A DNA stretch of 64,000 bases from Apibacter sp. B3706 (GTDB taxonomy: Bacteria > Bacteroidota > Bacteroidia > Flavobacteriales > Weeksellaceae), in NCBI RefSeq assembly GCF_011082725.1, contig NZ_CP049715.1, positions 1,302,001-1,366,000 of the forward strand, read 5' to 3'. The position numbers were made by a program, and so were the translations under genes. The first letter of the stretch is position 1. Each line of letters starts with the position of its first letter. This document shows positions 53,795 to 57,334 of this stretch, piece by piece. The notes under the pieces were generated by a model. It did not search any database. It saw nothing but the letters and a program-made list of their open reading frames with translations, and was not told the DNA's origin.

Positions 53795-54658
53795 ATGGAA
53801 AAAAACTCTTTTATTAAATCCCAAGGCTTGGGTAACGAATACATAGTAATCAATGAAGATACTATTACTTTTCCTTTAACTGAAAAAGCCATTCAAAAAA
53901 TCTGTAACGTAAACTTCGGAATAGGTTCTGATGGAATATTAGTAAAAACAAAGTCAGAAACGGCTGACATAGGTCTGAAAATTTTTAATCCGGATGGTTC
54001 CGAAGCAGAAAAAAGCGGAAATGGATTAAGAATTTTTTGTAAGTATGTATACGATTATAAAATTATTCCTCAAAAGGAATTTACAGTAGAAACCAAAGGA
54101 GGAAAAGTTCGTGCAACCATACAAGAAACTTTAAATGAGAGGGCTGCTTTAATAACAGTAGATATGGGTCATGCCATTTTTGATTCAAAACAAATACCCA
54201 CTTCCTTTAATTCGGAAGAAGTACAAGATGAACGTATTACTATCGATGATCAAGAGTTTCTAATCAATTGTGTTTCTGTTGGAAATCCACATTGTGTGAT
54301 TCTCAAAGAAAATTTAGATAGTGAGGAAATAAAAAAATATGGACCTAAAATTGAAACGTTTTCAAAATTTCCTAACCGTATAAATGTTCAATTTGCAAAA
54401 GTACTGAATAGAGATGAAGTTCAAATATTAATTTGGGAAAGAGGGGCCGGTTTCACTTTAGCCTCAGGAAGTTCGTCTTGTGCGGTAGCAAGTGTATTAA
54501 GAAAAAAAGGGTTAATAAATAATAAAGTAACCATTAAAATGCCCGGAGGAGAACTTAAAATAGAAATTGATGATCATTGGCAAATAAGAATGACCGGAGA
54601 AGTTCGCCAAATTTGTGAAGGTGTTTTGCATGAAGAATTAATAAACAGTTTTTTATAA
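53795..54658 (+). CDS. dapF: Diaminopimelate epimerase-like protein lacking both catalytic Cys
   Basis: The family (DapF) interconverts LL- and meso-diaminopimelate for lysine and peptidoglycan, using two cysteines. The fold is well preserved: GLGNEYIVI, NPDGSEAEKSGNG (Ser74), VGNPHCVIL, ERGAGFTLASGSSSCA (Ser224) and MPGGELKIEI. Both catalytic Cys of classical DapF (Cys73 and Cys217 in Haemophilus) are serines here. The size, 287 residues, is normal. Either it uses another chemistry, has a different substrate, or is non-catalytic. The symbol is by family only. TATATTTA lies shortly upstream, one base from -7 consensus. Confidence 0.7.
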   Translation: MEKNSFIKSQGLGNEYIVINEDTITFPLTEKAIQKICNVNFGIGSDGILVKTKSETADIGLKIFNPDGSEAEKSGNGLRIFCKYVYDYKIIPQKEFTVETKGGKVRATIQETLNERAALITVDMGHAIFDSKQIPTSFNSEEVQDERITIDDQEFLINCVSVGNPHCVILKENLDSEEIKKYGPKIETFSKFPNRINVQFAKVLNRDEVQILIWERGAGFTLASGSSSCAVASVLRKKGLINNKVTIKMPGGELKIEIDDHWQIRMTGEVRQICEGVLHEELINSFL

Positions 54659-54830: not shown

Positions 54831-56222
54831 ATGAAAATAAAGTATCACGATTTAATTCAACAAACTTTTGATTTTCCACAGCCCGAATTTAAGGTTGATA
54901 ACGGAAATTTATTATTTCATGACATCCCTTTAATGGACTTAATTGAAAAATTCGGAACTCCTTTTAAGTTCAATTATTTACCTAAAATATCGCAAAACAT
55001 ACAACAAACCAAAAAATGGTTTAAAAAGGCTTTTAAGGAAAATAATTACAATAATGAATATAGATATTGTTATTGTACGAAATCAAGTCATTTTTCATTC
55101 GTGGTTGAAGAAGCTTTAAAAAATAAAATTAGTTTGGAAACTTCTTTTTCAAACGATATGGAAATTATACGAAGATTATACGATAAAGGAATTGTCGATA
55201 AAAATATAGAAGTTGTTTGCAACGGATTCAAAACCGATGAATATTTAAAAATTATTTCGGAAATGATTAACGGCGGCTTTTCTAACATATTACCTGTATT
55301 GGATAATTTCAGAGAAATCGATCGACTTTCCGACAGCATAGATACTAATTTTAATATAGGTATTCGAATTGCCTCTGAGGAAGAACCTAAATTTGAGTTT
55401 TATACTTCTCGTTTGGGAATCGGATATAAAGATATTGTTCCCTTTTATGCTCAAAAAATCCAAAATCATCCTTTTGCTCGTTTAAAGATGTTGCATTTCT
55501 TTATCAACACGGGGATTAAAGATACTTCCTATTATTGGAACGAACTTTATAAATGTTTGCGAGTTTATGCTCGATTGAAAAAAATCGCACCCGAAGTGGA
55601 TTCGCTCAATATAGGAGGAGGTTTTCCTATAAAAAATTCCTTGAATTTTGATTACGACTATTATTATATGGTCAATGAGATTACTTACCAAATAAAAAAA
55701 TTCTGTGTTGAAGAAGGAGTAGAAGAACCTACTTTATATACCGAATTTGGTTCATTCACTGTTGGAGAAAGTGGAGGGATTGTTTACAAAATTTTAAGTC
55801 AAAAAAGACAAAATGATCGGGAAAAATGGGATATGATTGACAGTTCTTTTATGACAACATTACCTGATTCTTGGGCTATTTCTCGTCGTTTTACCATGCT
55901 TCCTATCAATCGTTGGGAAGATTCCTATGAACGGGTTTTCTTAGGAGGTCTTACTTGTGATAGCGATGATTATTACAATTCAGAACAACACGTTAATGCC
56001 ATTTATCTTCCTATTTTCAGTGAAGAAAAACCTCTATATATAGGTTTTTTCAATACAGGAGCTTATCAAGATGCCATTAGCGGGTTCGGAGGGGTGCACC
56101 ATTGTCTAGTTCCGCAGCCAAAACATATTTTGATCAATAAAAATAAAGACGGCGAATTTACTTATGAGGTATTTCGAGAGGAACAAAATTATAAGCAAAT
56201 TTTAGATCTTTTAGGTTATTAG
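54831..56222 (+). CDS. Arginine decarboxylase (fold-III, flavobacterial type)
   Basis: This 463-residue PLP enzyme of the alanine racemase-like fold forms agmatine from arginine in polyamine synthesis. The PLP lysine is in YCTKSSHF (Lys84); conserved GGGFPIKN (about 263-270), TEFGSFTVGESGG (about 305-317) and the C-terminal active-site GLTCDSDDYY (about 378-387) match the shorter Bacteroidota arginine decarboxylases, not the 630-residue SpeA of Enterobacteria. No agmatinase gene is in the window. It lies 172 bp after the DapF-like gene, with no evidence of co-transcription. Confidence 0.85.
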   Translation: MKIKYHDLIQQTFDFPQPEFKVDNGNLLFHDIPLMDLIEKFGTPFKFNYLPKISQNIQQTKKWFKKAFKENNYNNEYRYCYCTKSSHFSFVVEEALKNKISLETSFSNDMEIIRRLYDKGIVDKNIEVVCNGFKTDEYLKIISEMINGGFSNILPVLDNFREIDRLSDSIDTNFNIGIRIASEEEPKFEFYTSRLGIGYKDIVPFYAQKIQNHPFARLKMLHFFINTGIKDTSYYWNELYKCLRVYARLKKIAPEVDSLNIGGGFPIKNSLNFDYDYYYMVNEITYQIKKFCVEEGVEEPTLYTEFGSFTVGESGGIVYKILSQKRQNDREKWDMIDSSFMTTLPDSWAISRRFTMLPINRWEDSYERVFLGGLTCDSDDYYNSEQHVNAIYLPIFSEEKPLYIGFFNTGAYQDAISGFGGVHHCLVPQPKHILINKNKDGEFTYEVFREEQNYKQILDLLGY

Positions 56223-56317: not shown

Positions 56318-57334
56318 ATGCGTCTATTGCATAAATTTATACTAATTATATTCATTAGTTTATACTCCATTGTCTATTCTCAAAACGGGCAAGAAATATA
56401 TACTTTTATGAATATGACCGTATCTGCCCGTCAAGCAGCTTTAGGAGGTAATGCTAATTCTTCTTGGGACAATGATCCTAATATGGCTATGTTCAATCCG
56501 GCAATGATGAACGATAAAATGCATAACCAAGCGGGAATAAATTATTCCTCTTATCTTGCAGATGTCAAATTGGGAGCTGTTTCCTATGTCTATAATCCCA
56601 AAGAAAGTAAGCACTATTTTTCCCTTCATGGAAGATATGTAGATTATGGAGATCTTAAAGCCGCCGATGAAATTGGAAATGTAACCGGAAAATTTACAGC
56701 AAAAGACGCAGCAGTAACTTTGGGTTATGCTTATAATATCTCTGATTTCTTTACCGTAGGCGGAAATTTATCTTATGTTACCAGTAAAATTGAAAGTTAT
56801 ACTTCTTCCGCTCTTTTGGCTGATCTTGGGGTGGTATTTCACGACATTGATTATTATACTACCGTTTCTGCTGTGGTTAGAAATTTTGGAGGGCAATTAA
56901 CTTATTATAATGATAGAAGAGAAAAATTACCCATTCAAGCAAATTTAGGAATCTCGCAACGATTCGAAAAATTACCGATGGAGTTAACTCTTACCTTACA
57001 TGACTTACAAAAATTTGATATTTCTTCACCAACTAATAAAAAGGGAGAAAAGATCAATGGAGGAAGAAAAATTATAGATCATATTTCGCTAGGCGCCGAA
57101 CTTTTTCCCGAATCAGGATTCAACCTCAGAGCCGGATATAATTTTAAGAGAGGTAATGAATTGGCCATTGAAGATCAACGGTCATTTGCCGGATTAACTC
57201 TTGGTTTTGGTGTGAAAATTTCATATTTTCGCTTTGATTACGCTTGGGGGCGATATAATGCTGCGGGAAACACCAATACTTTTGGACTACGTATAGACTT
57301 GGAAAATATGTTTGCTCCTCGTTATGACTGGTAA
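56318..57334 (+). CDS. porQ: T9SS protein PorQ
   Basis: PorQ is an outer-membrane beta-barrel of the PorV family that belongs to the type IX machinery for cargo attachment. It begins with a signal peptide (1-21, ending VYSQ) and a FadL-like repeat of strands with family features such as MTVSARQAALGGNAN (about 32-46) and MAMFNPAMM (about 56). The C-terminal strands end RIDLENMFAPRYDW. Length is 338 residues. It is followed directly by cmk, the same arrangement as in many Bacteroidota. Confidence 0.92.
   Translation: MRLLHKFILIIFISLYSIVYSQNGQEIYTFMNMTVSARQAALGGNANSSWDNDPNMAMFNPAMMNDKMHNQAGINYSSYLADVKLGAVSYVYNPKESKHYFSLHGRYVDYGDLKAADEIGNVTGKFTAKDAAVTLGYAYNISDFFTVGGNLSYVTSKIESYTSSALLADLGVVFHDIDYYTTVSAVVRNFGGQLTYYNDRREKLPIQANLGISQRFEKLPMELTLTLHDLQKFDISSPTNKKGEKINGGRKIIDHISLGAELFPESGFNLRAGYNFKRGNELAIEDQRSFAGLTLGFGVKISYFRFDYAWGRYNAAGNTNTFGLRIDLENMFAPRYDW

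Follow-up and report, generated by a model that had tools for sequence, protein, structure and literature searches.

Can an epimerase of the DapF type convert LL-diaminopimelate (LL-DAP) to meso-DAP when both of its catalytic cysteines are replaced by serine? The DapF step supplies an essential building block of the cell wall and of lysine. Catalysis by racemases that need no cofactor is explained through a thiol-thiolate pair, and it is these thiols that aziridino-DAP and other DapF inhibitors are designed to trap. The question is raised by a dapF-like gene in a 64,000-nucleotide stretch of DNA (the window) from an Apibacter-type host, a bee-symbiont-like bacterium whose genome is a single contig of 2.30 Mb.

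Serine at both catalytic cysteine positions

Profile searches of ORF 53795-54658 identified a full-length DapF homologue (TIGR00652, 251 bits against a cut-off of 114.65), two stretches of which correspond to both halves of PF01678 (186 bits against 34.7). The translation of 287 aa contains NPDGSEAEKSGNG and ERGAGFTLASGSSSCA, and its nearest named relative is a protein of Apibacter mensalis (88% identity). Both the bifunctional DapF/glutamate racemase model NF038284 (71 bits, cut-off 350) and the PhzF family model TIGR00654 (24 bits, cut-off 76) scored below their cut-offs. The gene and its two key codons are as follows:

53795..54658, + strand: Ser/Ser DapF homologue, 287 aa, with TIGR00652 and PF01678 matches; the single PF01678 protein of the genome
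54014..54016, + strand: Ser74, codon AGC, first catalytic Cys position (Cys73 of H. influenzae DapF), from direct codon reading and alignment
54464..54466, + strand: Ser224, codon TCA, second catalytic Cys position (Cys217 of H. influenzae DapF), from direct codon reading and alignment

The original prediction of serine at both catalytic Cys positions was confirmed when the codons were read directly and the Cys columns aligned. In an alignment with 42 Cys/Cys DapF sequences, including E. coli DapF, Ser74 and Ser224 align precisely with the columns of the two catalytic cysteines, and HMMER alignments to solved DapFs place them likewise. Since the catalytic Cys pair of DapF is missing, the Ser/Ser protein is not an ordinary member of the family; it represents a distinct DapF subfamily that agrees with DapF in every other feature tested.

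The remainder of the protein had been described as intact, and this is borne out by the dN/dS values of the Ser/Ser genes (0.04-0.09, rough estimates with several dS values near or above 1), which rule out gene decay. Throughout 48 Ser/Ser sequences, the codon of Ser74 is always AGY and that of Ser224 always TCN, with all four TCN codons in use; a single base change separates either codon type from a Cys codon, though not the same change in the two cases. Both serines are retained despite free drift among their synonymous codons. A sequencing error or chance was rejected, because the same serines recur in the 48 sequences with such drift and in all eight Apibacter carriers.

A single copy in place of the Cys/Cys dapF in Apibacter

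A PF01678 profile search of the window genome recovered only one ORF, as two domain hits, and no second dapF with both cysteines was found, in agreement with the suggestion that this gene could be the organism's only DapF. (Sole-copy status refers to the PF01678 search for Apibacter and for genome G011, and to profile cut-offs elsewhere.) Eight of the nine Apibacter genomes encode the Ser/Ser protein as their single PF01678 protein. In G001, the ninth, there is only a Cys/Cys DapF, 26% identical to the Ser/Ser protein, and the two types never occur together in any of the nine.

The gene order in G001 is aroE, dapF (Cys/Cys), mltG. In six Ser/Ser genomes (the window genome G000, G002, G003, G004, G005, and G008), dapF is gone from this site, aroE and mltG lie 97-137 bp apart, and no Cys/Cys remnant was found in the gaps. 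The Ser/Ser gene of the window is located away from aroE-mltG, between an ABC-2 transporter gene and a pyridoxal phosphate (PLP) decarboxylase gene. Thus, the Ser/Ser gene stands in for the Cys/Cys dapF that is absent from the aroE-mltG site. No Ser/Ser remnant was found in the truB-speA gap of G001. This gap (L168:1482-2611), where G004 has the Ser/Ser dapF, holds an RNase P RNA-like stretch, GAGGAAAGTCCGGACACC, recognised by eye, as well as the gene of a small, multidrug-transporter-like membrane protein.

The downstream neighbour in the window is:

54831..56222, + strand: PLP decarboxylase of the arginine/DAP decarboxylase superfamily (PF02784; speA-type models below cut-off)

It also adjoins the Ser/Ser dapF in G002, G008, and G004; it is a neighbour only, and our argument does not depend on it. 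Positions 56318-57334 encode the type IX secretion protein PorQ (NF033711, 384 bits, cut-off 220).

The pathway requires an LL- to meso-DAP step

The window genome contains dapA, dapB, dapD, and lysA above NCBIfam cut-offs, and homologues of these four genes were matched in the other Apibacter and in the tested Ser/Ser Aquificota, with a few gaps in draft genomes. A weaker point of the pathway is dapE, for which only an M20 candidate below the cut-offs was detected in the window genome. Its murE carries the DNPR motif, which in MurE is linked to meso-DAP-type substrates, and LysA requires meso-DAP. The DapF step can be bypassed by meso-DAP dehydrogenase (Ddh). No Ddh above the curated cut-off was found in 12 + 38 genomes, including every Ser/Ser genome checked; these 50 genome checks gave weak partial matches only, and a Ddh bypass was rejected. 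DapL of the TIGR03542 type was also discarded: it remained below cut-off in 12 of 12 genomes, the matches resemble general aminotransferases, and dapD is present instead. The window genome thus requires the LL- to meso-DAP step, and neither Ddh nor DapL of the TIGR03542 type was detected as a bypass. With dapA, dapB, dapD, lysA, and a DNPR-type murE, and with neither Ddh nor another DapF, the Ser/Ser protein is the only route from LL- to meso-DAP visible in its gene content.

Distribution and evolution of the Ser/Ser type

Among 90 sampled homologues, 48 have serine at both positions and 42 are Cys/Cys, and a mixed Cys and Ser pair was not observed. A clade with the double substitution had been suspected and does exist: when the residue pairs were mapped on a tree of the 90 proteins (quick method, motif columns removed), the 48 Ser/Ser sequences formed one clade (SH-aLRT 100) adjoining Bacillota Cys/Cys DapFs. 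Replacement of the Cys/Cys pair by a Ser/Ser pair on a single occasion would best explain this topology.

Close Ser/Ser relatives are found in Clostridium intestinale, Niastella, and one Hydrogenothermaceae genome. The type is present in two of 395 Bacteroidota genomes (the window genome and one other). In the heat-loving Aquificota, 32 of 121 genomes contain the Ser/Ser type (divided between contigs in two of these genomes), 41 contain a canonical-type DapF at E<=1e-20, and none contains both at this threshold, a clean split between the two groups of genomes. About a quarter of the sampled Aquificota genomes therefore have the Ser/Ser type with no Cys/Cys partner detected, and several of them had a single candidate at first look. 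The sequences of Apibacter, Niastella, C. intestinale, and genome G089 group together inside the otherwise Aquificota part of the tree, as horizontal transfer would be expected to give. Mobile carriage was not supported: no close relative was detected on plasmids, phages, or viral contigs, and plasmid and phage matches were below 60% identity (40% for the best among the matches listed).

A deeper Ser/Ser branch occurs in seven further Bacillota genomes, in some of them beside a Cys/Cys copy. Both types were found together in C. intestinale, Niastella, G773, and G771. The last of these, a Bacillota genome, encodes a divergent Ser/Ser homologue (L119) that lacks Lys73, Ser45, and Ser227 in addition to having a Cys/Cys DapF in the same genome; this homologue may have another function or be a pseudoenzyme. 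The literature searched contained no account of a Ser/Ser DapF, and a paper beyond that literature may exist.

Residues that changed together with the serines

Four further positions distinguish the two types:

53840..53842, + strand: Tyr16, present without exception in the Ser/Ser sequences; replaced by Phe in 41 of the 42 Cys/Cys sequences
53927..53929, + strand: Ser45; 38 of the 42 Cys/Cys sequences have Ala
54011..54013, + strand: Lys73, directly preceding Ser74; found in 47 of the 48 Ser/Ser sequences, where the Cys/Cys sequences have Met or Gln
54473..54475, + strand: Ser227, near the start of helix 225-237; Gly in 42 of 42 Cys/Cys sequences

These residues are nearly invariant among the Ser/Ser sequences, and very few Cys/Cys sequences have them; in addition, Ile80 of the Ser/Ser protein stands where most Cys/Cys DapFs have Cys. 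Their fixation on one branch links the co-changes to the serines but does not make them a requirement for serine function. They are proposed to activate the hydroxyls, and Lys73 would be the first candidate for an activator of Ser74.

Conserved substrate-binding residues and predicted fold

In the 90-sequence alignment, Asn14, Asn65, Asn76, Asn164, Asn197, Glu215, and Arg216 are conserved in 48 of 48 Ser/Ser sequences, and position 226, also a DAP contact, is Ser or Thr in this set. All residues that contact the two ends of DAP are thus retained, and they match the DAP contacts in solved DapFs (PMC5296763, PMC12039745).

The AF2 model (mean pLDDT 88.8) has the DapF fold by both Foldseek and VIA-align, and its PDB matches are DapFs. 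Foldseek ranked the closed, aziDAP-bound Anabaena DapF (9mro) first. In VIA-align, O-ureidoserine racemase (7vdy) and the best DapF were tied in Z, and therefore the fold is not sufficient to assign the substrate; in sequence, the Ser/Ser protein is nearer to DapFs than to 7vdy.

A putative serine-based epimerase and its alternatives

Taken together, the catalytic-position residues, sole copy, pathway context, replacement of dapF, conserved DAP-binding residues, fold prediction, and purifying selection indicate that this gene is quite likely the organism's functional LL-DAP epimerase, using a serine pair. Serine chemistry in the ordinary DapF reaction is most probably the right, if putative, reading. 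In the proposed mechanism, the substrate would close the two domains, with Ser74 and Ser224 each at the N-terminus of one of the two central helices, facing the alpha carbon from opposite sides. One serine would take a proton and the other would give one back, and the meso-DAP formed from LL-DAP would feed LysA and MurE. The serines are thereby proposed as the bases, and Lys73, Tyr16, Ser45, and Ser227 may help by lowering the pKa of the serines or by orienting their hydroxyls. Such an enzyme might also gain in that it would escape the Cys-Cys disulfide (Cys83-Cys221) by which DapF of C. glutamicum is switched off (PMC5296763).

Evidence against a serine-based epimerase is that laboratory Cys-to-Ser changes nearly abolish the activity of relatives. 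In PddB, such changes leave <0.1% (PMC8225329), the same loss is cited there for MtDapF, and the activity of HisR is greatly reduced by C67S and C209S (PMC11602996). A plain swap should therefore fail. However, the related proline racemase superfamily includes a naturally occurring Ser/Cys 4-hydroxyproline epimerase that is active (PMC4113996), and thus serine can serve on one face.

A variant of this explanation, in which the protein is a DAP epimerase but proton transfer falls to Lys73, Tyr16, or an activated water, held in place by the serines, seems rather unlikely, but it has some evidence in its favor. Serine is a poor base, and the thiol-thiolate pair of H. influenzae DapF has measured pKa values of 6.5 and 8.5 (PMC12039745). 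The near-fixation of Lys73, Tyr16, Ser45, and Ser227 in the Ser/Ser set would fit a base other than serine. In the Anabaena structure, both sulfurs are free of basic residues out to 4 A (PMC12039745). Against this variant, serine is found in 48 of 48 sequences at both positions, compared with 47 of 48 for Lys73.

It is improbable that the protein acts on another substrate or catalyzes another reaction (as a diamino acid racemase or in an elimination) while an unrelated enzyme supplies meso-DAP. Relatives sharing the fold do act on histidine, diaminobutyrate, and O-ureidoserine, and the Ser-type relatives of proline racemase include a dehydratase (PMC4113996). Moreover, where a Cys/Cys DapF is also present (C. 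intestinale, Niastella, G773, and G771), a second role for the Ser/Ser protein is possible. However, the two types exclude each other in Apibacter and Aquificota, no Ddh was found, and the residues binding both ends of DAP are all conserved. The original prediction thus held with regard to an intact Ser/Ser protein that is the sole DapF and belongs to a clade, but its option of a paralogue with another substrate was not upheld for the window genome, given that there is no second DapF and no Ddh, the DAP-binding residues are kept, and dapF has been replaced. Finally, a dead or regulatory pseudoenzyme, with LL-DAP used directly or meso-DAP and lysine scavenged, would agree with the nearly dead Cys-to-Ser mutants of relatives, but it is very improbable in view of the low dN/dS (0.04-0.09), the invariant surroundings of the active site, the presence of a LysA that needs meso-DAP, the substitution of this gene for the Cys/Cys dapF, and the Aquificota genomes in which no Cys/Cys partner was detected.

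If serine-based epimerization is correct, a two-hydroxyl enzyme would test the need for a thiolate and would show how a protein can bring serine within reach of a carbon acid whose pKa is ~29. Organisms with such an enzyme would be expected to be insensitive both to inhibitors directed at the DapF thiols and to shut-off by oxidation. C. intestinale and Niastella, with both types, and Apibacter, with one or the other, make this reading directly testable. Should the protein have no activity on DAP, an unknown epimerase must exist in these organisms, which would be equally interesting.

Comparison with known systems

The closest known system is DapF itself (EC 5.1.1.7; structures from H. influenzae, B. 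anthracis, Anabaena, and C. glutamicum), which the Ser/Ser protein resembles in fold, length, the two PF01678 halves, a TIGR00652 score above cut-off, the DAP-binding residues, and the pathway slot. The catalytic pair is Cys/Cys there and Ser/Ser here, and where the Ser/Ser protein has Lys73, Tyr16, Ser45, Ser227, and Ile80, the residues usual in Cys/Cys DapFs are Met, Phe, Ala, Gly, and Cys. The H. influenzae DapF mutants C73S and C217S (PDB 2q9h and 2q9j) are close structural matches to the model; each has one serine, as a single engineered change without the co-changed residues of the Ser/Ser clade. Natural serine at the first catalytic position is known from two groups of the proline racemase superfamily (PMC4113996), namely the Ser/Cys 4-hydroxyproline epimerases, which have a related fold and do epimerise, and the Ser/Thr trans-3-hydroxyproline dehydratases. 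These enzymes belong to another superfamily and use other substrates, and among those described in that work there is none with two serines. O-ureidoserine racemase (7vdy), HisR, CntK, and PddB share the DapF-like fold and the two-base scheme with the Ser/Ser protein, but they are Cys/Cys enzymes with other substrates.
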